IMG/VR virus record: IMGVR_UViG_3300032006_000081 | Location: 1 to 24,119 of that record | Length of the DNA stretch: 24,119 nucleotides | Reading direction: 5' to 3' (one strand) | Source: a virus | Shown here: in pieces, positions 2,307 through 16,423 of the stretch | Numbering within the stretch: the first letter of the stretch is position 1 | Layout of the letters: every line of letters begins with the position of its first letter | The notes under the pieces: model-generated | Database searches by the model: none | Told to the model about the DNA's origin: nothing | What the model saw: the letters and a program-made list of their open reading frames with translations, nothing else | Position numbers and translations under genes: made by a program

Positions 2307-2576
2307 CTAAGCACTAATCGTATCTATATTAAATGTTAAAGATGTACCACCACCATTACCTAGTTGTGGATCAGCTATAGTAATAATATCGTCTACAGCG
2401 TACCTACTTCCTTTAGTTGTAATAGATACGCTAGCCGCTCCACTGCCATTTACAGTTACCGTAAATACTGCTCCCGTTCCATTTCCGTTAGTAGAAAAAG
2501 AACTAACATTGTATGTACCAGCCGTTCTGGATGAGTCAGCGTCACTTATTGTATCTATTGTTTCAATCTTACTCAT
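2307..2576 (-). CDS. Stand-alone 89-residue beta-module protein
   Basis: After a short start (MSKIETIDTISDADSSRTAG) the protein is one copy of a module: TYNVSSFSTNGNGTGAVFTV, then SVSITTKGSRYAVDDIITIA, then GNGGGTSLTFNIDTISA. This 'GtY.v......GtGa.F.v.v.G.G..sv.it..GsgY.v.d.iti....lGg....tFnI' module is normally found in long tandem arrays inside marine phage structural proteins. Here it is a complete gene. ATGA overlap with the preceding gene shows translational coupling; only a weak TAGG lies upstream. It is probably a small virion or fibre-cap subunit. Confidence 0.65.
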   Translation of the reverse strand: MSKIETIDTISDADSSRTAGTYNVSSFSTNGNGTGAVFTVTVNGSGAASVSITTKGSRYAVDDIITIADPQLGNGGGTSLTFNIDTISA

Positions 2577-3376
2577 TGCCTATTCACATTGTTTTTAAAC
2601 AGCCATTCACTTCTAACAAGATCGTTAATACCTATATGATTCATAACTTTTATATATTCTTCCCCAAAATTCTCAACACATTCATCAAGAAACTTATAAA
2701 AATGGTCTACTGAAGGCATAACACCATCCTCATCCATCATCTTTTCACAACTATTAATATAGTTTCCAATAACTCTTTGTGCAGTTTGTAAATGGATACC
2801 GTACTGTTCAAAATATTCAGCATTACCTTGAGTTATACGACCCGTTAAAATCATATCTCTATGCCCCTGTCTAAACACCTGTCTAACATGATGTCGTATT
2901 TCATCAAGTTCAGAATCTTCTTCGTCCCAGAATTCTGGAATATTGTTGTTTTTTCGTATCTCTTCATAGGCATCCTGTAAAGCACCTATTTCCCGTAACG
3001 CCCCATCAATATATATCTTACTTCTTTCTAGACTATGTTCTGCTTGTTCAAGCTTTATCATAGACAGTTCATCACCTTTCTCTGACCATTTGTCTCTAAG
3101 TAGTTTACCTTTTCTAAGTTTCCAGTAAGTTGATTCAACTGCCTGTCTTTTCGTTTCTATTTGAGAAAGAATCTGACGTAATCTTCGGTAAGGAGAATCC
3201 GTCAACATAGTTAACGTCATAAGCTGAGTCGTGGTCTGAGTGTTTCTTTTGCCAGCAGTATTATTAGCCCTGTCTATTTCAACCATACGCTTAGATATTT
3301 TCGCCATTTTTTTAGGCGTTATCGTTGGTAGGTTTTGGACAAAATCTTCGGGTATTGCTAAATCTTTAATTGCCAT
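2573..3376 (-). CDS. Helical coiled-coil phage protein, unknown function
   Basis: 267 residues, mainly helical and charged. Seen: a hydrophobic-basic start MAIKDLAIPEDFVQNLPTIT, a long helical/coiled-coil stretch at about residues 60-150 (RRLRQILSQIETKRQAVEST, then LEQAEHSLERSKIYIDGALR), and a C-terminal helical domain containing RDMILTGRITQGNAEYFEQY and IGNYINSCEKMM. A '...G.i..g..Ey.eQ.GI...' pattern resembles uncharacterised structural proteins of marine myophages, a weak resemblance made from memory. It lies among fibre genes, so a fibre assembly chaperone, connector or baseplate role is possible. GGGGG lies 8 bases before ATG 3376. Its TGA overlaps the next ATG (ATGA). Confidence 0.65.
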   Translation of the reverse strand: MAIKDLAIPEDFVQNLPTITPKKMAKISKRMVEIDRANNTAGKRNTQTTTQLMTLTMLTDSPYRRLRQILSQIETKRQAVESTYWKLRKGKLLRDKWSEKGDELSMIKLEQAEHSLERSKIYIDGALREIGALQDAYEEIRKNNNIPEFWDEEDSELDEIRHHVRQVFRQGHRDMILTGRITQGNAEYFEQYGIHLQTAQRVIGNYINSCEKMMDEDGVMPSVDHFYKFLDECVENFGEEYIKVMNHIGINDLVRSEWLFKNNVNRQ

Positions 3377-3379
3377 ATT

Positions 3380-4174
3380 TTAATCCCCCGAACTACTTGC
3401 CATAGAATGAATCTCATCTTGTAAATTGCCCGCATCTGTAGCATTTCCAGCAGACTGAATAGTTATATATTGAACTGCATCTATTGAAACTCTTGACGGA
3501 TATGCATCGTCAGGGACAACACCACCCCAAAATTCTCCTCTTGTACCATTACTTACTCCAGAAGGCCAGTAATTACCATCAGGTCCCCACATGTTCCCCC
3601 AAGTATTTTGTTGTCCATAAATAACCATATCTCCAAAATCTGTCGCATTACCTGTTGAGTCTATTGTTACGTATTGCATATATTCTACATAGTCATAATT
3701 ATCTTTTTGTCCACCACCCATTACCCCTCTTGACCCATCTACTACTGAAGTACTAGACATTGAATTCATATTCTCTACTAAATTTCCAAAGTCGCTTGCG
3801 TTACCAGTACTTGCGAATGACCAGTAACCAATTTTATTATTGTCTACATATTGTCCACCCTGCCAAGTAGCATAAATGGCTCCGTGTCGTATTCCTCTAG
3901 TAGGATTAGATATTCCTCCACATTGCCATCCAGCAACTGTAAGACTTCCCCAAAATTGAGTGTTACCTGTAGAAGCCATAGTTACATATTCCATATCAGT
4001 GGTCTGTCCACCAGAAGTTCCTTTATATCCCCCAAGATACAGACCATATGTATTACTATTAGATGCCCCCACATTAGCTGCTCCCATATGTGTTTGAGTA
4101 CGTAGGTCACCAAAATCACTAGCATTTGAAGTGCTAGCAATAGTTAAATAATCTATGGTAGTTTTTCTTCCCAT
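3380..4174 (-). CDS. Propeller-repeat tail protein (C-terminal part of a split protein)
   Basis: 264 residues, almost wholly made of a ~50-residue repeat. Five copies start at IDYLTIASTSNASDFGDL, MEYVTMASTGNTQFWGSL, IGYWSFASTGNASDFGNL, MQYVTIDSTGNATDFGDM and VQYITIQSAGNATDAGNL. Each is followed by a G-x-R-G-x3-GG type turn (SRGVMGGG, TRGEFWGGV), except the last, which ends early at SMASSSGD. With the blade in the preceding gene this gives six blades, where the first ORF would supply the closing strand of the last blade ('Velcro' closure). Such kelch-like propellers are common in tail fibre tips. ATG 4174 follows the preceding TAA directly and has GGGAG 8 bases upstream, so it can be translated alone. 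Confidence 0.68.
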   Translation of the reverse strand: MGRKTTIDYLTIASTSNASDFGDLRTQTHMGAANVGASNSNTYGLYLGGYKGTSGGQTTDMEYVTMASTGNTQFWGSLTVAGWQCGGISNPTRGIRHGAIYATWQGGQYVDNNKIGYWSFASTGNASDFGNLVENMNSMSSTSVVDGSRGVMGGGQKDNYDYVEYMQYVTIDSTGNATDFGDMVIYGQQNTWGNMWGPDGNYWPSGVSNGTRGEFWGGVVPDDAYPSRVSIDAVQYITIQSAGNATDAGNLQDEIHSMASSSGD

Positions 4175-4573
4175 TTAATCTTCTCCCGCCATCTGTATAA
4201 ATCGACTTCCATTAGATACCCCCGCAGCATATGCGACATCATCTGTTAAATCTCCGAAGTCACTTGCGTTACCATTAGAGGTTATAGCTTTATAATTAAT
4301 AAGTCTCTTCATATAACCGTTACCATCTCCTACAGGATATAGATTACCTCCAGCACCTATACCTCTAGCCCCAAGAAAACCAGGAATAGGGGGGCCACTA
4401 GAAGTACCATAAAAATCAGCAGCTAATTGTATCTCCCCCGAAGCGGGAGCATTCCCTTCATCATGATAATCGCTTAACTGAATTTCCTGGTTACTATGTG
4501 TGCCAGTAAATTCAGCATAAATATCAGTTAGCTTTATTTGACCACTACCCGTTATTTCGTCATCAGGAGGCAT
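4175..4573 (-). CDS. Tail protein with ISLSDF-type anchor and first propeller blade (N-terminal part of a split protein)
   Basis: 132 residues. The N-terminus repeats a virion-type motif three times: SGQIKLTDIYAEFTG, NQEIQLSDYHDEGNAP and SGEIQLAADFYGTSSG. This is like the 'iSlsdfyG' elements at the base of marine phage fibres. From residue ~64 it enters a beta-propeller: GFLGARGIGAGG (end of a blade), then INYKAITSNGNASDFGDLTD (a full blade start), then GVSNGSRFIQMAGED and TAA. The next gene starts at the adjacent ATG in the same frame and continues the repeat, so this looks like the front of a 397-residue protein interrupted by one stop. Its own start ATG 4573 has no clear ribosome-binding site and overlaps the fibre gene by 11 bases, implying coupling. 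Confidence 0.65.
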   Translation of the reverse strand: MPPDDEITGSGQIKLTDIYAEFTGTHSNQEIQLSDYHDEGNAPASGEIQLAADFYGTSSGPPIPGFLGARGIGAGGNLYPVGDGNGYMKRLINYKAITSNGNASDFGDLTDDVAYAAGVSNGSRFIQMAGED

Positions 4574-7500
4574 TCTTTAATTCCGTTATTTCTTCTTTTA
4601 GTTCTTTAATAGATTCTACAAGAAGTCCTATTATTCCGTTGTAATTCAAGGCTTTATAATTTCCCTTATCAAACGGATCGTCAACATTTTTTACTAATTC
4701 TGGAAGAACTTCTTCTACGTCTTGTGCTATTAATCCAGCACTACTTCCTACATTTTCATCTTTCCAATCAAATAATACTCCCCGTAATTGAGAGACTTTA
4801 TCAAGAGCCTGATCAATAACAGTTACATTTTTCTTCAAAGCTATGTCAGAAGTAATTGTTGTAGAGTAAGCATATATATCCTGTCTTGCATGGAAGTCTC
4901 CATCATTCTGCATTCTGAAGTCCAAGGCTCCGCCAACATAGAAATCTATTTCATTAAAGTTTCCCGATTCTCTAAGATATGTATCACCACCACCATCTAA
5001 GTAAACACCTTTGCTAGTGCCAACAGATATATATCCACTTGTTTTTAACCCGCCTGTGACAGGATTAAAAGTAAAAGTGGCTGATCCAGAATAAAGAACC
5101 TGTTGAGCAGAGGTACTCGCATTGTCTATAAAGGATACGTACTGATCAGCATTGGTAGAATCAGCGGCAGCTCTTATTTTATCTACTCCACCCGGAACAG
5201 TTACTGCCCCTTGATAATCAAGGCGTAGGACCTCAGTACCGCTACCAAAACCAGTACCCCTTGCTCCTGAGTATTCAATTCGTAATGCTCTAGGATTGTT
5301 AGCATCTGCCCACATTGCCCAGCTTCTATCATCAGTACCACTGCTGGCAAACATCCTCATCCCACCTTCAAAAGTTGTAGAACCCGAACCCGGCAAAGGC
5401 ACACCTAGACCCAGCCAAGTACCTGATGCGGGGGCTGCAATATCTAAGTTGTAAGCTGGAGTGTCAGTACGAAGCCCTACATTTCCAGTACCCATATCCA
5501 TTACTAGGATATTGTCTACTCGGTCAGAACCATCATCATTTAACGATTGGAACCAACCTACCCCGCCATCAATTCGGTACATCATCCATTTATCATTACT
5601 TGAACCGCCCGAATCTATCACATGTAGAGAAGGAGGATTAGCCTCTATTAGCATTTGACCATGAGCAACAGTATCTTTTATATGAAATCCAGTAACATCT
5701 AAATCTACTGTACCGTTAGCTACGTTTTGGAAGGCGGAATCAGTATTAATTCCCACCTGTACTTTATACTGACTACTTACATATCTAGACCGTAGCGAAA
5801 GGTTTTTCTGAGGCTGACTATTAACGTAAGTACCGAAAGTAAGAATACCGTTATTTGAAGCGTTGTTAAGTTGGACCTCAGTATCTGAATCAGATAATCG
5901 TACATTAGCCTTAGTAGACCCTGTAGCTGTCTGAAGATACATGTAATCCCCAGAATAAACACCAAACATATTAACTGCGACAGTACCAGCCGAAGAAATT
6001 TTAAGTGGCGTTAACATAGAAGAACCATTGTGTACCTTGAATAACATTTCTGAGGCATAAGCCCCGGAACTCCAAGTACCGTCAGCAAGAGCAGTTATTT
6101 CGGCTCCATTCTGAGAAGCTGAAGGATCATCCCCTCTAAAGAGAATTGTTCCTAATCTATTGCCATCTGCTATTGAAGAGTCGGCTCTTGTTAAAGCTAG
6201 ATATGCACCTGTAGCATGTTGTGGAGCTAGAACGCCCGCCGTTAATGTCGCATACCTAGTGCCAGCAAGGTCGAAATTAATCTGGGTAGTTGCGTCTAGG
6301 GTTATTGGATAACCTACATTCATATGTAATCCAAGAGAGGCCCTTGTATCATAATCTATTTGCATCTCAGCGTAGTGGTTAGTGTTGGTATCAGCATTAA
6401 ATGTCCAAGCTATACCAGATTTAGTTCCAGTTACTCCACCTTTTAAGAGAAGAAATTTAGCATTGCCGTCAATAATCACATCATTTAATGCTCTAAATCG
6501 TCCGTCAGATTCAAGTTTAAGATCAATATTTCCTGCTCTACCAATTCTTAAATCGTCTTCATAAGCATCTAAAAAGTAATACTGATATGTAGTGTCATGA
6601 TCAGCCGCGGTGCTAAGTCTTAGCTCCCCACCTTCAGCGTTTCCAGTAGCACCGCCCAAGGCATGGAATATACCGGGAACTGAATCATTAATCCCCATAT
6701 ACATGGTGTAGGCACTACTATCTATAAAACCTACTTGAACATTATTATGTTTAAAATAAAAATCTGTATTATTTGCTGTATCAAATGTGAAGTTACCAGT
6801 ATTATTGTCTATCGTGAAATTGCTACCAGTATGGTACATAGTCGTATCAACAGACGCATTCCCAGAAGTACCACCAAAACCTAGATAGGTATTATCCAAG
6901 AAGTGCATCCTGTTTTGGTTTTCGTCCCAAATCACATGCCGTCCAGCAGTAGCACCAAAGAAAGTAACATCTACTCCAGTATCATCTACCCCAAAATTAA
7001 CCGCCCCGCCATTAACTAGTACATTACCATTAAATTTACTTACTCCTGAGCCTACCAACAGGGCGTATTGGTTAGTACCATCGTCAGGAGCATCTTTAAT
7101 GTAAAGAGTTGCTGCGTCTGTTACAGTTCCTGAACCATCACCTAAATCGGGATGGGAAAGATATAAGGTTGCAGCTATTGCAGATACCCCTGCGGTTGTG
7201 ATACTTCCACCAACGTCAATCCCCATAGCTACCTGTGCAAGGAAGGCTGAGTCTCCGCTGTGACCAGTAATATCTGGTCCTATTGCAACCCCTACTGTTT
7301 TATCACTAGTACCATCACTGGTATAGACATGTTGTATATAGTGCCCGTAATAGTAATCTCCAGAATCGAATATCCTATATCTGGCATTGTTACCTACCGT
7401 AGCCCCTTCACCAATAACAAAACTATCATTACTGTCATCAGAAGCTATGTACCAATCCTGACCTCCAGAATGCCCATTAAAGTACAATCCGTAATCAGCC

Positions 7501-10500
7501 TCTGCACCAGAACCAAGAGTTAATGATCCTGCTTGCATAGTGATTGCACCGCTAGCAGCAATTGACATATTAGTAGTACCGCCATCTTGAAGATAAAGAG
7601 CGTCACCACTAGCTAAATTGATGTAAGCAGCATTATTGCTTGAATCATCATTTATCGTCATACCGCTAGCAAATGTAATATTGGCATCTTGTACTAAGCC
7701 TAACCCTGTAAGCGTACCTACTGAAGTTATACTGCCTTGAGCTGCTGTTGCTAACGTACCTACTAAGCTAGATCCAGTGATCGTACCGAAAGTAGCATTC
7801 ATAGCAGTTCCAGAGAAAACCTCTGAGCTATTAGTGGCTGCAGTAAATCCAGTAAATACCCCCGCAGAGTCATCATATCCAAAAAATCCGACTCTAGCAG
7901 AAGAGCCATCGTGATAGCGGAACTCAATTCCTCTATCTTTGTTATCGTCTGAACCAGGAGCAGTATCTCCACCTAAAGTAAATATAGGATCATCTACTGT
8001 AACCGTAGTGCTGTTAACCGTAGTGGTAGTTCCATTTACAGTTAAGTTACCTACCGTAGCAGTACCAGTAGTAGTTATATTCTCATTGCCAAAACTTATA
8101 GTGCCGCTACTATCTGTAATAGAAGCAGCCGCTACAGTAAGAGTGCCAAAAATTCCACTCGTAGTACTAAGTGCATTGGTAGAAGGATTATACGTAATCC
8201 CAGCGTCATAAAGTATTTGTTGTGCGGAAGTATTAGCGTTATTTAAGAAGGCAATAAATTGACCTTCATTAGTCGCATCCGCTGCTGCTGTAATATTAGT
8301 TGCTGTAGTAGCAGTCGCTGAATTTCCTGACCACCCAGTGGAGCTTATTGTTCCTAGAGTGGCACTAGCGTCCATAAAGACGATATCCCCGCCATCAGCA
8401 TTTAATGTGATATCTCCCGCAACATCTACCGTAAGGTCACCAGAAGATAAATCTAACTCAGTTCCACTTAAAGTAAGGTTACCGACTACAAAAGAACCGC
8501 CAGTAATTGCGGCTGTAGTTGTTATGGTATTTCCAGTACTAATAGTTCCAAAACCAGAGGCTATCGTGCCACCAGCCAAAGCCCCGACAGACGTAATATT
8601 TGTCTGAGCCGCTGTAGTTATAGTACCCGCTAAGCTAGTAGCAGTAATAGTGCCAGTAACATCAAGAGGAGTAGCTGGGTTGGACTTGCCTATACCTAGT
8701 CTATTATTAGTAGAATCCCAGAACAATTGACCATTATCGGAGGCATGCCCACCGCTACCATCGGAAAACTGTACATGTCCAACAGTTCCTGACGCAGTTC
8801 CTGAAGTCGAAGTTGCCATATCTAAGCGAGATACAGTAACAGTAGTGGAATCATCATTATTTCCTACTGCATTTAGAGCAGCTCCACTATTCTGATATAA
8901 CTGAACGGTTAGGTAGTCAGCTACATCATCAACATAAAATGTGGTACTTGCACCAGAAACAGTACTTGTACCACCAGAGGCAGATGTAGCCCTATCTCTA
9001 AGAATTATATTAGTAGCATTACTGTTAGAAGTATCTGTGTGAGTTACCCGCATCTCTCTGTAGCCAACGGCATCGGCAGCCCATTCTTGCTGAACACTAA
9101 TTAACCAGTACCCCGTCTGACCAAAAGTAATCCGCTCTGTGTTGCTACTAGCATCGTGCATAGTGCCAACATCATAAGATTCGGTCCAAGCTGTCATCGT
9201 GGTAGCAGAGTCATTAGATACAGAAGTAGTTCCATTAGTCAGATAAAGTTTTGTTCCTTTAAATGCACCACCACCAGCCAATGCTCCAGAATTTGTAATC
9301 TTTATTTCCGAATCAGAATCGCTTCTATAATAGAGTTCATTGTCACTCTTGGCATAAACCATGCCATAACCAGTTACAGCAGAAGGAGTAGACTGCTCTT
9401 TAAGAGCTAATGAATTGTTTTTAATTTCGACATTACCAGCAGCACCAAATGCTGTAGCTGAAGATCGAAATTGAATCTCATTACCACTTCCACTTGGTAA
9501 TCCCGTGATACCTAAATTACCAGGGGCAACCTTCTTATAAGAAGAAGCATTATCATCATAAAGAAGTAGGTAATCACTAGTCTGATCTACACCTGATGTA
9601 ATAGCAGTTTGACCTGTAATTACATCTGTATGAACCATAGCCATTTGAACAGCAGTATTAGCTATGGTTACCACACCAGCATCAGTAGAAGTCACGTCTC
9701 CTGAGAGAACGTAATCTACCCACTTGGATGATGTAGTGTCGTAAAAAAGTAATGAAGCATCGGCAATAGAAGTTAAGTTGGTATCTGTAGCCGCCGCTAT
9801 ACTCGATGTAGTGTTATTGTCAACATAATATTTAATTGATTGCTGAGTGGCTAAAGAAGTCGCACTATCAGACCCCATATTGTCTTCATCAAGTACAGTA
9901 ATTGCAGATGGGGTAGCAGCACTTCCTGTAAGGTTTCCTATAACTCTCATGCTGGCTAAGTTAGCCATATGAGATAAATCAATCGCTCCCGCAACAATCT
10001 CAGCACTATCTACAGCATTAGCCTGGATAGTAGAAACACCCGTTACATTCGCAGTGCCATCAAACGAAGCAGAAGTCCAAACAACATCTCCTGTCATTCC
10101 TATAGTTCTAGGGTTGGCCAAAGAAGTGGCTGATTCGGCAGTTCCTGTCACTACTCCAGAAAACCCCCCTGAAGCAGTAAGTACTCCAGTACTAGGGTTG
10201 TAGGTTAAGCCTGAATCAGTTTCTATTCCTTGTGTGCCTGTTTGTCCGTCCACAAAAGTTACATATACAGTCTCATTTGTAGTGTTATTTGCCGTTGCAG
10301 TTACATTCGTAGCTTCTGTAGCTGTTCCAGCTAATGACCCTGTAAAAGTAGTTGTAGTTAAATTATTAGTTGAGGGATTATATAAAAGACCAGCATCATA
10401 AAGAACTTGCTGAGCCGAAGTATTGCTATTATCTAAGAAAGCGATAAATTGATTCTCATTCTCAGCATTAACTGCAGCTGTAACATTCGTAGAAGTAGTT

Positions 10501-13500
10501 GCTGTATCTGCATTACCAACAAGAGCCGCCTGTAACGATCCTGCTGAAATAGTTAAATCCCCAGATGATGATCCTGTGGCTGATGTAGTTCCGACAATAA
10601 AGCTGTCAGTACTCTCATCCCAAGCTATGATGGCATTAGCAGAAGAACCTCTCTCTATGACTATCCCAGCATCCCCACTTGGCGTACCACTAGTACCGTT
10701 AGCTAACTCAATCAATTTATCCGTTATTGTCGTATTCGTGGAACTTGCTGTTGTTGTATCTCCAGTTACAGTCAAATCTCCTGAAACAACAAGATCCCCG
10801 CTCATAGTGACTCTTTCTTGACTGTTTCTAGTGTCAAGAACAATCATTCCCGCTTTACCAGCAGTGTCAAAACTTAATGCAGATGCATTGTTATCAATCA
10901 AGTCCCAATCTGTAGCCTGACCTGTAGTAGTAATATCGCCTGTTGATGTCAAACTAGCTACAGTTGCGGCTCCTGTAGTAGCAGTCCCTACTACCGTTAA
11001 AGCACCGGGAATCGAGATTGTTGTCCCTCCCGCACCCATTGTTAAGGTGTTTGCTCCGACTGTATCGAATATTGTCTTATTCCCTGCGGTTAAATCTAAG
11101 TCGGTTAATGCTGTTAAAGCAGTTATCGTTCCGCCTAATGAAGTGGACGTACCACCTATCGTAATAGCACTATTTGCTAAAGAACCATTTGCTATATTTG
11201 AAAGAGTATTACTTGACCCAGAAATAGTTTTATTTGTTAATGTTTCAGTTAACGATGTAGTCGCTAATGTGGATGTTGCATTAGGTAAAGTTACAGTAGC
11301 ATTACCACTATAATTAGCGTGGGCTGTGGACTGTAATTGAGTATAGTGGGCGTTACCTACTTCACAATAAAATCTTACATGTGAGACAGCTCCACCATTT
11401 TTAATAGATATGGAACCTTGCTCAATATCTACCCCATTAGCACCATCAATTCGTACTACACCAGAACCATTTGGAGTTAAAGCTATATTATTATTAGATG
11501 AACTAATTAATGAACCTTCTATGTCTACATTAGCGACTATCTTTGAACCGCCCGAATTGGCAGTATTAAAAGTAAGGTAAGAATTACTTCCCTCTTTAAT
11601 AACGAAAGCTGTAGCAGAGTTATCAATTATTCCTATGCTAGAAGCTTCTCCAGCCATATCCAATAAATCCGTGGTCATGACTACATTTCCAGTACCATTA
11701 GGAAGAATAGAGATATTCCCATTAGCCCCATTAGCTACCGTTATAGAACCACTATTTGATCCCGCATTGGTATTAAGGGTTAAATCACCCGTACCGTTGG
11801 TAGTGACAAACGCAGTAGCATTTGCATCCCCAACTCGCACAGTATCCGCATCAAGCTGAACATCCCCTGTACCATTCGGAGCCAAAATCATCGCTCCATT
11901 AGTGTTAGTTGTTGAAATGGTATTCCCATTCAACGTGATGTTATCTACACGAATTTCTGTTGCTACAGCATTAGTACCTATAGTGACTCCGTCAATGGAC
12001 CCACCATTAATATCAACAGTTGTGACAGTACCTAAATCTGTCCAAGTTCCTGTAAGAGCACCACCCCCGGTGACTGTTAATGATCCAGCTAAAGAAGTAG
12101 ATCCGCCCGCTACCATCAAAGCATGATTAGCTCCACCCTCTGTTGGAGCATTTTGAATGTAAACCGTAGCTGCCGTAGTGGCAGTACCAGTAGCTGTGAT
12201 AACTGGCTCAACGACATGCAAGCTAGACACAACTGCAGCAGTTCCCGTGGGAATCGTAACTCCAACAGGAGCCAATCTAACTGCACTAAATGAAGTATCC
12301 GCTACTGCTGTCAAAGCTGGAGGAGCTATCCGTATAAATGCAGTATTAACTACTGAATTACCTAATCCAAACGATCCCACGCCTCCAAACGTATTAGCAT
12401 CTAAAACGAAGGCATTGGCATTGCCGTTAGACTCAATTCTAAAATCTGAATCAGCACTAGACTCATTAACTACAACCCCACCCGCACCATCAATGGCTAA
12501 AATACCAGTGGATGTAGATACCGTGGTAGCTTCTTTAAATTGGAAAGCTCCAGTAGCGTAAGTTAATTTAGCAACATCATTGATTGAGTATTCCCATCCT
12601 GCTCCACTAGGAACATTAAGGTGCATCTGATTAGTACCATCAGCATCTCTACCAACTGAGTAATCTGCCCCAGTAACAGCTGTTCCAGTTCCCCAAGTTA
12701 GTTGACTATGGGAAAGAATATTTCCTGTACCAACAACTCTGGTGTTAATTATTAGATCAGTACCGTTATAGCTAATGTCAGCATCGCCACCAGTACCGAA
12801 AGTAGCATTAACATTGTCATTAAATGACATATCGTTAGCTACAGTTGTAGTCCCATTAAAAGTAACTCCAGCTATATTTCCAGAATTAATATCAACACGG
12901 GTCATATTATGATTAGCAAAATCAATAGCCCCACCAGCACTCCACGCACCTAAAGTAAGAGTGCCAGAAGAGGTGTTGATCGTTGTAGCCTTTGCAAAAG
13001 CAAATGCTCCATCAGTGTGATTTAACTGAGAAGTACCAGCAATTGTGGTATTTAAAGTATTTGATCCATGCGTATAGGTAATCTTTCCTACATCATTATC
13101 AGAAGCATCGCCAAAGACGATTCCACCAACCGTAGGAGCTAATATATTAATGTACGCATTATCACTGTTTTCTAAAATTAATAAGGAATCAGCCACAGCA
13201 GAAACCGATCCAGCAGTAGCTTCCCATAAGTGCAAAAGATTATCTGGTGAAGGTAAACCTGTCCTACCTATAATAAAATCTGATCCACTAGCAGTCTTCA
13301 ATTCTAACTTTACATCCGTACCATCAGAAGCAAAATCAGCATCAGCACCTAAAGTACCAAGTAATAACGAAATATTGTCATTAAAGACTGTATCTCCAGA
13401 AGAAAATGTCGAGGTAACTTCAGATGTGTCGGTGGACTTAATGTCCAATACATCTGTCATAGTTCCATTTACCATGACAGAGAAAACTACCTGACCATCT

Positions 13501-14039
13501 CTAGTACCAGTAGTTACATCTGTAAATTGCCACTTCATCTGAGCAGCATCATTCTGAGAACCACTAGAGTCCTCTAACTGATAAGTTATGTATGCTGAGT
13601 CATTATCGGCAGCTGAAGCTCTATTACCGCCTCTAAAAACAGCTACCCGATTCGAAGCAGAATCAAAAGCATTTTGAACTGTTAAAGGCTGGGTAGTTGC
13701 GTTAACGCTAGAAGTTATATCTACTCCAGTAGTAGGAGAAAGAGTTAACCTAGTAGCTCCATTAATCTGAAAGAAAATGTTGTTGCTGGCCCCATTAGCA
13801 TTGAGAGTTAGGTTCTCACCAGAAGCAGAACGAATAGTGCTGGCTTCAAGAATTCCAGCTGAACTAGAGATAACTCCAGCATTAGTTATGCTAAAGACAG
13901 GGCTGCCTCCACCAGAAGGACGACACATTATGTAGTCCCCTGATCCGCTTTGGACTAACTCCAAAGCCGCCTGGGAATCGTTAAGAATAAACTGCCTTTG
14001 GGCAGGATAAAACGATATTTGCCGAAGATCTACAGGCAT
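4563..14039 (-). CDS. Giant tail-fibre/adhesin protein (3158 aa) with C-terminal Peptidase_S74 chaperone
   Basis: A very long Gly/Thr/Ser/Ala/Asn-rich fibre protein likely to trimerise and contact the host surface. Seen: from the N-terminus (MPVDLRQISFYPAQRQFILN) many short beta modules of the type 'gt.t.tG.lt.ts.....gdltv.g.ttt.nst'. A module (GRNSQERVTMSGDLVVSG-like) lies near residues 1046-1103, and a C1q/TNF-like jelly roll near 1592-1741 (GYWLISVQQEW ... DYLTVQLYQNSGAALN). A related 'TVNGTTTTVNSTTVTVDDPI' module is near 1983-2116. A motif N-x-[TS]SAQQ-[VI]-LY recurs near 1184-1219, 1913-1950 and 2952-2993. The last 95 residues are a Peptidase_S74 intramolecular chaperone: SDIALKKNV with Ser3064, AGLIAQDVEEVLPELV and YKALNYNGI, then a Lys/Glu coiled coil. 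The chaperone should cut itself off before Ser3064 after folding. GGGAGG precedes ATG 14039. Its stop overlaps the next start by 11 bases. Confidence 0.9.
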   Translation of the reverse strand: MPVDLRQISFYPAQRQFILNDSQAALELVQSGSGDYIMCRPSGGGSPVFSITNAGVISSSAGILEASTIRSASGENLTLNANGASNNIFFQINGATRLTLSPTTGVDITSSVNATTQPLTVQNAFDSASNRVAVFRGGNRASAADNDSAYITYQLEDSSGSQNDAAQMKWQFTDVTTGTRDGQVVFSVMVNGTMTDVLDIKSTDTSEVTSTFSSGDTVFNDNISLLLGTLGADADFASDGTDVKLELKTASGSDFIIGRTGLPSPDNLLHLWEATAGSVSAVADSLLILENSDNAYINILAPTVGGIVFGDASDNDVGKITYTHGSNTLNTTIAGTSQLNHTDGAFAFAKATTINTSSGTLTLGAWSAGGAIDFANHNMTRVDINSGNIAGVTFNGTTTVANDMSFNDNVNATFGTGGDADISYNGTDLIINTRVVGTGNILSHSQLTWGTGTAVTGADYSVGRDADGTNQMHLNVPSGAGWEYSINDVAKLTYATGAFQFKEATTVSTSTGILAIDGAGGVVVNESSADSDFRIESNGNANAFVLDANTFGGVGSFGLGNSVVNTAFIRIAPPALTAVADTSFSAVRLAPVGVTIPTGTAAVVSSLHVVEPVITATGTATTAATVYIQNAPTEGGANHALMVAGGSTSLAGSLTVTGGGALTGTWTDLGTVTTVDINGGSIDGVTIGTNAVATEIRVDNITLNGNTISTTNTNGAMILAPNGTGDVQLDADTVRVGDANATAFVTTNGTGDLTLNTNAGSNSGSITVANGANGNISILPNGTGNVVMTTDLLDMAGEASSIGIIDNSATAFVIKEGSNSYLTFNTANSGGSKIVANVDIEGSLISSSNNNIALTPNGSGVVRIDGANGVDIEQGSISIKNGGAVSHVRFYCEVGNAHYTQLQSTAHANYSGNATVTLPNATSTLATTSLTETLTNKTISGSSNTLSNIANGSLANSAITIGGTSTSLGGTITALTALTDLDLTAGNKTIFDTVGANTLTMGAGGTTISIPGALTVVGTATTGAATVASLTSTGDITTTGQATDWDLIDNNASALSFDTAGKAGMIVLDTRNSQERVTMSGDLVVSGDLTVTGDTTTASSTNTTITDKLIELANGTSGTPSGDAGIVIERGSSANAIIAWDESTDSFIVGTTSATGSSSGDLTISAGSLQAALVGNADTATTSTNVTAAVNAENENQFIAFLDNSNTSAQQVLYDAGLLYNPSTNNLTTTTFTGSLAGTATEATNVTATANNTTNETVYVTFVDGQTGTQGIETDSGLTYNPSTGVLTASGGFSGVVTGTAESATSLANPRTIGMTGDVVWTSASFDGTANVTGVSTIQANAVDSAEIVAGAIDLSHMANLASMRVIGNLTGSAATPSAITVLDEDNMGSDSATSLATQQSIKYYVDNNTTSSIAAATDTNLTSIADASLLFYDTTSSKWVDYVLSGDVTSTDAGVVTIANTAVQMAMVHTDVITGQTAITSGVDQTSDYLLLYDDNASSYKKVAPGNLGITGLPSGSGNEIQFRSSATAFGAAGNVEIKNNSLALKEQSTPSAVTGYGMVYAKSDNELYYRSDSDSEIKITNSGALAGGGAFKGTKLYLTNGTTSVSNDSATTMTAWTESYDVGTMHDASSNTERITFGQTGYWLISVQQEWAADAVGYREMRVTHTDTSNSNATNIILRDRATSASGGTSTVSGASTTFYVDDVADYLTVQLYQNSGAALNAVGNNDDSTTVTVSRLDMATSTSGTASGTVGHVQFSDGSGGHASDNGQLFWDSTNNRLGIGKSNPATPLDVTGTITATSLAGTITTAAQTNITSVGALAGGTIASGFGTISTGNTITTTAAITGGSFVVGNLTLSGTELDLSSGDLTVDVAGDITLNADGGDIVFMDASATLGTISSTGWSGNSATATTATNITAAADATNEGQFIAFLNNANTSAQQILYDAGITYNPSTNALSTTSGIFGTLTVAAASITDSSGTISFGNENITTTGTATVGNLTVNGTTTTVNSTTVTVDDPIFTLGGDTAPGSDDNKDRGIEFRYHDGSSARVGFFGYDDSAGVFTGFTAATNSSEVFSGTAMNATFGTITGSSLVGTLATAAQGSITSVGTLTGLGLVQDANITFASGMTINDDSSNNAAYINLASGDALYLQDGGTTNMSIAASGAITMQAGSLTLGSGAEADYGLYFNGHSGGQDWYIASDDSNDSFVIGEGATVGNNARYRIFDSGDYYYGHYIQHVYTSDGTSDKTVGVAIGPDITGHSGDSAFLAQVAMGIDVGGSITTAGVSAIAATLYLSHPDLGDGSGTVTDAATLYIKDAPDDGTNQYALLVGSGVSKFNGNVLVNGGAVNFGVDDTGVDVTFFGATAGRHVIWDENQNRMHFLDNTYLGFGGTSGNASVDTTMYHTGSNFTIDNNTGNFTFDTANNTDFYFKHNNVQVGFIDSSAYTMYMGINDSVPGIFHALGGATGNAEGGELRLSTAADHDTTYQYYFLDAYEDDLRIGRAGNIDLKLESDGRFRALNDVIIDGNAKFLLLKGGVTGTKSGIAWTFNADTNTNHYAEMQIDYDTRASLGLHMNVGYPITLDATTQINFDLAGTRYATLTAGVLAPQHATGAYLALTRADSSIADGNRLGTILFRGDDPSASQNGAEITALADGTWSSGAYASEMLFKVHNGSSMLTPLKISSAGTVAVNMFGVYSGDYMYLQTATGSTKANVRLSDSDTEVQLNNASNNGILTFGTYVNSQPQKNLSLRSRYVSSQYKVQVGINTDSAFQNVANGTVDLDVTGFHIKDTVAHGQMLIEANPPSLHVIDSGGSSNDKWMMYRIDGGVGWFQSLNDDGSDRVDNILVMDMGTGNVGLRTDTPAYNLDIAAPASGTWLGLGVPLPGSGSTTFEGGMRMFASSGTDDRSWAMWADANNPRALRIEYSGARGTGFGSGTEVLRLDYQGAVTVPGGVDKIRAAADSTNADQYVSFIDNASTSAQQVLYSGSATFTFNPVTGGLKTSGYISVGTSKGVYLDGGGDTYLRESGNFNEIDFYVGGALDFRMQNDGDFHARQDIYAYSTTITSDIALKKNVTVIDQALDKVSQLRGVLFDWKDENVGSSAGLIAQDVEEVLPELVKNVDDPFDKGNYKALNYNGIIGLLVESIKELKEEITELKNAS
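4566..4850 (-). other. Peptidase_S74 autoprocessing domain; predicted cut before Ser3064
   Basis: Codons for residues 3064-3158 of the giant fibre. Catalytic Ser3064 is encoded at 4848-4850 and the partner Lys lies in LKKN a few residues on. In endosialidase-type fibres this domain drives trimer folding and then cleaves its own N-terminal bond, so it is expected to be absent from the mature virion. Confidence 0.85.
10730..10900 (-). repeat. Fibre module copy shared with 1640-1820
   Basis: Partner of the module copy in the second fibre gene; it corresponds to residues ~1046-1103 of the giant fibre. Protein and DNA similarity are both visible across the tract. Confidence 0.65.
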
Positions 14040-15733: not shown

Positions 15734-16093
15734 TTAATTTGTTCCCCAGACAGCACCAATAATTCTTCCGTTTAGAGGAGTAGCCCGGATAACAGATATT
15801 TGTCCTGTTAAACGTATAAACTCCTCAACATATCCAGTTCCAGCTGGAACAAGCATTGATGTGCCTGTAGTTGTTGCGTCTCCATTAAAATTTACATACA
15901 AGTCAGCTTTATCTACCATCAACGTAATGTGGTTCGCCTCAGTCATAAAGCTTGAAACAGTTAATACTGTCTCAGCATCGCTCCCACTAGTCGTAAGAGC
16001 GAAAGGTTTAAACCCTTCATAGGGCTGAACAAGCTCAATCCCTAAACGGAGTTTTATTTTTTCATCAGACTTAAACTCGTGTGGTGTTGTCAT
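15734..16093 (-). CDS. Small beta-rich structural protein, paralog B
   Basis: 119 residues. After a distinctive hydrophilic N-terminus (MTTPHEFKSDEKIKLRLGIE) the sequence follows paralog A along its length, with ADLYVNFNGDATTTGTSMLV, PAGTGYVEEFIRLTGQISVI and NGRIIGAVWGTN. The start is ATG 16093, directly after the TGA of paralog A with no gap, and GGGGA precedes it. The tandem arrangement points to gene duplication and divergence. The pair may form a hetero-oligomeric ring, as duplicated small virion proteins sometimes do, but that is speculation. Confidence 0.7.
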   Translation of the reverse strand: MTTPHEFKSDEKIKLRLGIELVQPYEGFKPFALTTSGSDAETVLTVSSFMTEANHITLMVDKADLYVNFNGDATTTGTSMLVPAGTGYVEEFIRLTGQISVIRATPLNGRIIGAVWGTN

Positions 16094-16423
16094 TCAACGT
16101 CCCCAGACACAACCACGAATACGTCCATTAGTAGCCCCAACTCGCATAACGGAGATTAATCCAGTTACACGAACCTCTTCTTCGGTATAACCAGTTCCAG
16201 CAGGAACTAACATAGAAGAGCCATCACTAGTTGCGGCACCATTAAAATTTACATATAAATCACCAAGCTCTACCACAAATGTAATTCTATTTGCCTCCTC
16301 CATTACAGAAGCAACATCTATTACTGTTGTAGCAGAAGCTCCAGCCGTTGTAGTAGTGAAACCACGATAATTAGGTAACGGCTGCATTAACTCAATTTGT
16401 GTACGTATCTCAGGTGCTGGCAT
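16094..16423 (-). CDS. Small beta-rich structural protein, paralog A
   Basis: A 109-residue, all-beta-looking protein with ADLYVNFNG-type (GDLYVNFNGAAT), SMLVPAGTGYTEEEVRVTG and NGRIRGCVWG motifs. It is a clear paralog of the adjacent gene at 15734-16093: a hand alignment of about 102 positions gives about 59 identities. The C-terminal 'isv.r....Gri.g.vWG' strand pair is typical of small virion beta-sandwich proteins. The start is ATG 16423, overlapping the previous TAA by one base, with AAGGA just upstream. It probably encodes a minor virion component, perhaps neck, tail or a fibre adaptor. The function is inferred only from context. Confidence 0.7.
   Translation of the reverse strand: MPAPEIRTQIELMQPLPNYRGFTTTTAGASATTVIDVASVMEEANRITFVVELGDLYVNFNGAATSDGSSMLVPAGTGYTEEEVRVTGLISVMRVGATNGRIRGCVWGR

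Follow-up and report, generated by a model that had tools for sequence, protein, structure and literature searches.

Two abutting genes on the minus strand of a marine phage contig (IMG/VR record IMGVR_UViG_3300032006_000081; the 24,119 nucleotides analyzed are referred to here as the window) probably encode a functional propeller made of two chains, likely an adhesin, produced through translational coupling from a ribosome-binding site that is encoded by the Gly-Gly of the blade itself. In the proposed mechanism, two polypeptides from the locus would make up a single Kelch-fold propeller with six blades, most probably a virion adhesin. Ribosomes would end chain 1 at a TAA codon and then begin chain 2 at the adjoining ATG, the restart being aided by a ribosome-binding site in the Gly-Gly turn of the blade they have just completed. 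Two mixed blades would join the chains into a ring: chain 1 would contribute strands a and b of blade 2 and strands b, c and d of blade 1, and chain 2 would contribute strands c and d of blade 2 and strand a of blade 1.

The junction and the predicted ring

The 132-residue open reading frame (4573 to 4175) closes with TAA (4177-4175), and the ATG that follows directly in frame (4174-4172) opens the 264-residue frame that ends at position 3380 (Table 1). This junction had been reported in a preliminary description of the window, together with the GGGAG located 8 bases ahead of the second ATG (4187-4183), and both were confirmed. The same description held that only the two parts together give six blades, which also proved correct: scoring with a blade-motif position matrix placed one motif upstream of the stop and five downstream, and the joined model is six-bladed. 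The motif spacing read through the stop is 48 residues, and the family median in open junctions is also 48. A double glycine follows strand b in most units of the propeller; the chain 1 turn immediately ahead of the stop is AG rather than GG.

Table 1. Features of the split propeller locus and its neighbors in the window
Feature	Position	Strand	Remarks	Basis
Chain 1 gene, 132 aa	4175-4573	minus	Ends with TAA; predicted layout: anchor-like N-terminal domain (aa 1 to ~66), blade 1 strands b, c, d, blade 2 strands a, b	ORF, predicted fold
Chain 2 gene, 264 aa	3380-4174	minus	Predicted layout: blade 2 strands c, d; blades 3-6; final strand (a) completing blade 1	ORF, alignment with relatives, predicted fold
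TAA-ATG junction, gap 0	4172-4177	minus	In the predicted b-c loop, past the Gly-Gly turn	
GGGAG, Shine-Dalgarno-like	4183-4187	minus	8 bases ahead of the second ATG; within the conserved-turn codons	
267-aa gene after the split propeller	2573-3376	minus	phrog_1409-like; marker used to place relatives	
3158-aa fiber gene	4563-14039	minus	C-terminal S74 intramolecular chaperone; overlaps the chain 1 start by 11 bases	

When the two chains were modeled as one joined sequence (alignment of 58 rows), the prediction had a pLDDT of 80.6 and a pTM of 0.79, with most of the ring core above 90 and the junction at about 90. The joined model was collinear with designed six-blade Kelch rings and with Keap1 (Z 36-38, rmsd 2.0-2.6), and the match spanned residues 69-397, i.e., both sides of the stop. 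Read through, the window pair is predicted to be one six-bladed Kelch-type propeller with four-stranded blades that close into a ring. In Keap1, KLHL12 and the designed SAKe6 rings there are likewise six four-stranded blades, a Gly-Gly after strand b and a C-terminal strand that completes the first blade; unlike the window propeller, these are single chains, and identity is only about 10-12%. On this model, the window propeller is Kelch-like by fold only. Pfam gave no family for chain 1 or chain 2 at E values up to 0.1, and hence no Kelch, and relatives of the propeller gave no Pfam Kelch match either. PHROG gave a single weak, unnamed match, to chain 2 only, and there was no match in a sequence search of the PDB or, with the joined protein as query, among cultured-phage proteins.

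The order of the predicted strands, together with the collinear match to Keap1, puts the stop inside blade 2, in its b-c loop, and makes the last strand of chain 2 the one missing from blade 1. Two of the earlier claims are revised by this model: the stop had been placed between blades, and the first ORF had been thought to hold the strand that closes the last blade, whereas the predicted arrangement is the reverse. With the stop in the b-c loop of blade 2 and the final strand of chain 2 in blade 1, the chains would share two blades. Chain 2 modeled alone had a pLDDT of 43, albeit from a shallower alignment (12 rows, compared with 58 for the joined sequence); this poor model hints weakly that chain 2 depends on chain 1.

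Intact relatives and recurrent splits

With the downstream 267-aa gene as a marker, 31 loci were found in IMG/VR. Nearly all carry a single intact ORF, mostly of 309-390 aa, directly before the marker gene, and none of the 31 has a split of the window type. The joined window sequence aligned over its full length with the first four relatives aligned (31-37% identity), and its whole length is collinear with the marine phage propeller family of IMG/VR. As nearly all the relatives carry one collinear intact gene at this place, and not unrelated separate genes, the window pair can be traced to a single ancestral gene for a propeller. The one-gene propellers of marine phages resemble the window pair in having six blades and the same closing strand, and they often stand directly before a gene of the 267-aa type; they differ in being continuous, whereas the window pair and its analogs are cut in a b-c loop. 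The window propeller is distant from its nearest relatives (tree distance of 1.75). A consensus-like relative used as a query against cultured phages matched only Synechococcus phage S-SKS1, which was considered as a further split (L337, 3923-5775) and then kept as a contrast case, as its frameshift lies outside the b-c loop and has no restart. The remainder of the S-SKS1 propeller past the frameshift is unannotated. Propeller relatives were also seen in contigs recorded as Pirellulales, Parcubacteria, Maricaulis, Epulopiscium, Porticoccaceae and Nomurabacteria (L411-L416).

IMG/VR contigs yielded approximately 18 more split propellers. Every one is cut in the b-c loop, two or three residues past the Gly-Gly turn; with few exceptions the stop is directly adjacent to the following start or overlaps it, and the blades of the two parts sum to six (1+5, 2+4, 3+3 or 4+2). 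About 10 changes of state are required on a FastTree of 329 propellers, a figure that is rough owing to the repeat alignments. Whereas 3657 inter-blade junctions were open, the few breaks that occurred within propellers all fell in the b-c loop, a pattern beyond chance.

The splits were collected in two ways. The blade-motif position matrix was applied to all loci at a threshold of 12 bits, later 5 (the reverse-strand maximum was -21 bits). In 112 loci fetched irrespective of restarts, closed ORFs held 6 (130 ORFs), 12 (22) or 18 (1) motifs, with some at 4-5 or 10-11 where motifs were weak, and only L047, L068 and L081 showed broken neighbors within a propeller, each 2+4. Most other breaks in the scan simply marked where one tandem propeller gene gives way to the next; arrays of such genes, with 6, 12 or 18 motifs, occur in L033-L112 and other loci. 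Pattern scans for a start codon shortly before a blade select for restarts and are therefore uninformative on frequency, and the TAATG scan was noisy, as Asn-Val codons match too. These scans added splits of 2+4 (L209/L211, L225, L289, L305, and L161/L325 with two consecutive split propellers of 2+4 each, at 11905-13179 in L161), 3+3 (L218, L304, L334), 4+2 (L125/L217) and 1+5 (L235/L331), as well as L260/L284, a longer double propeller in which the cut follows blade 3. The sums for L125, L217 and L218 each include one weak blade read by eye. A test for association between splits and the 267-aa gene was not significant (6 of 16 split compared with 73 of 365 intact propellers, Fisher p 0.11), and no association is claimed.

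The junctions take the form of TAATG, ATGA, TTGA, TGATG, TAA-ATG or short gaps, and many shift the second part into another reading frame. L304, L305 and L325 have TAA-ATG without a gap, as in the window. These observations bear on programmed readthrough, raised earlier as a source of a minor full-length form alongside the short chain. The window stop is in frame and reading is open on both sides of it, as readthrough would require. However, it could not join the parts of the many sister splits that change frame (TAATG, ATGA, TGATG), and the 27-base spacer at the L068 junction holds several stops. TAA is, moreover, generally the least leaky stop. Readthrough is rejected as the general cause and is highly improbable in the window itself. 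The changes of frame also argue against stop reassignment as the general cause. Reassignment of TAA in the phage or its host, which the preliminary description already thought unlikely, has the open frame in its favor and nothing else; seven other window genes end on TAA, and its likelihood is negligible.

The blade sums and the position of the cut also bear on whether the products have separate roles, chain 1 serving, for instance, as a tail anchor while chain 2 forms a five-blade ring by itself. The parts are translated separately, and lectin propeller fragments can self-assemble in the laboratory (PMC4735018); however, independent products would not account for a total of six at any cut position, from 1+5 to 4+2, or for a cut that leaves mutually fitting half-blades on both parts. 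Separate action is thus a rather improbable reading. Assembly of the two chains into one ring, with coupled translation and an adhesin role, is the reading preferred here, and a split propeller made from two polypeptides, one of the options first listed for this locus, is supported by splits in other phages that recur at this loop and are conserved.

Putative ribosome-binding sites, and selection on both parts in relatives

The window GGGAG pairs with the 16S tail at an energy of -7.4 kcal/mol. This is stronger than at 97.5% of the window's 121 internal Met codons and in the same range as at genuine gene starts of the window. Actual split starts have a median of -9.75, compared with a median best local energy of -6.4 in intact loops; as the latter is the best of six windows, the contrast is conservative. 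The codons of the Gly-Gly turn (e.g., GCAGGGGGAGAT) are themselves Shine-Dalgarno-like. The layout is similar where tandem propeller genes adjoin, in that a conserved ...HGG ending stands ahead of an overlapping TAATG. Coupled translation, which would yield the two chains in near-equal amounts, is a natural reading of this arrangement. In tandem arrays such as those of L033-L112, gene ends of the form ...SNGHGGL plus a stop set a GGAGG-like site immediately ahead of the overlapping TAATG that follows.

In pairs of relatives that share a split, both parts are under purifying selection. L305 and L325, which have the TAA-ATG layout of the window, gave a dN/dS of 0.12 on each chain, with dS above 1 and near or at saturation. 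The values for the two parts were 0.27 and 0.12 in L047/L225, 0.48 and 0.42 in L125/L217, and 0.46 and 0.37 in L047/L068, the last compared with 0.58 for a neighboring intact propeller. The splits of these pairs are old and have been kept.

A different explanation is that the window carries a recent nonsense change, or an assembly error, in an ordinary one-gene propeller, and that the second ATG is coincidental. The parts are in frame with a normal loop length, so that one substitution would suffice; the split is known from a single metagenomic contig, and searches that included IMG/VR and phages with a related capsid found no close relative that shares it. Taken alone, the contig could be read in this way, and a recent nonsense change was among the options first suggested. 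However, a chance change would leave unexplained why the stop falls in the one loop common to all other splits, why it abuts an ATG with a Shine-Dalgarno-like site 8 bases ahead, and why an identical zero-gap TAA-ATG is conserved between L305 and L325 at a dS above 1; nor would it explain the recurrence of splits or the purifying selection on the parts in relatives. This explanation is considered unlikely. The window has the b-c loop cut, the abutting restart with a gap of 0 and the 1+5 sum of six that mark the other splits, and its own split is probably functional, judging by this likeness to conserved splits in loop, junction type, Shine-Dalgarno site and blade sum.

Phage context and known systems

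Phages with a closely related capsid protein were mostly 81-86% identical over its full length, with a few partial matches of up to 96%. No match to the propeller was found among the 30 such records searched, many of them fragments, and those examined carry other adhesin genes, so they cannot test the window stop. The presence of other adhesins would fit a propeller that is a swapped host-recognition module. In L407-L409, closely related capsid and neck genes accompany different fiber and adhesin genes. The 'fiber tip' role first suggested would be plausible, although the propeller is a separate gene after the S74 fiber gene. It is a more speculative proposal, and a doubtful one, that split propellers serve marine phages as two-chain adhesins with exchangeable parts, in which a cut at the loop that encodes the ribosome-binding site would let parts of the ring swap between phages without rebuilding the whole protein.

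Propellers completed by a second chain are known: those of Seh1 and Sec13 are completed in this way (PMC8907234). The Sec13-Sec31, Sec13-Nup145C and Seh1-Nup85 complexes resemble the predicted window pair in that another chain completes the propeller (PMC8907234), but there an unrelated scaffold protein donates a whole extra blade, whereas the window pair, known from sequence and a model, is cut within a blade and is supplied by two neighboring genes. Reassembly of propeller pieces is possible in the laboratory, and Tachylectin-2 fragments and designed propeller oligomers are like the window pair in that a propeller can be rebuilt from separate pieces (PMC4735018); those systems are laboratory-made or homo-oligomeric, whereas the window pair is natural and consists of two different chains. 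A non-exhaustive search of the open-license literature found no natural two-gene split propeller.

If the proposed reading is right, this would be a natural two-piece propeller that has evolved repeatedly, with a cut at a fixed loop within the blade and a varying position along the ring, and the native split pairs could be used to test the assembly of repeat rings during translation. It would also suggest that splits arise easily, as a likeness to a ribosome-binding site is already present in the conserved Gly-Gly codons. In that case gene callers will list the split halves as unrelated short proteins.

Three further observations concern neighboring genes. The phrog_1409-like gene matched 200 ORFs, and in many contigs of marine phages such a gene neighbors those for propellers. 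At 2307-2576 of the window, an ORF of 89 aa is similar to a short internal segment of a very large short-tail-fiber family (phrog_4527, E 3e-12). At 15734-16423, adjacent short genes of 119 and 109 aa resemble a tandem duplication.
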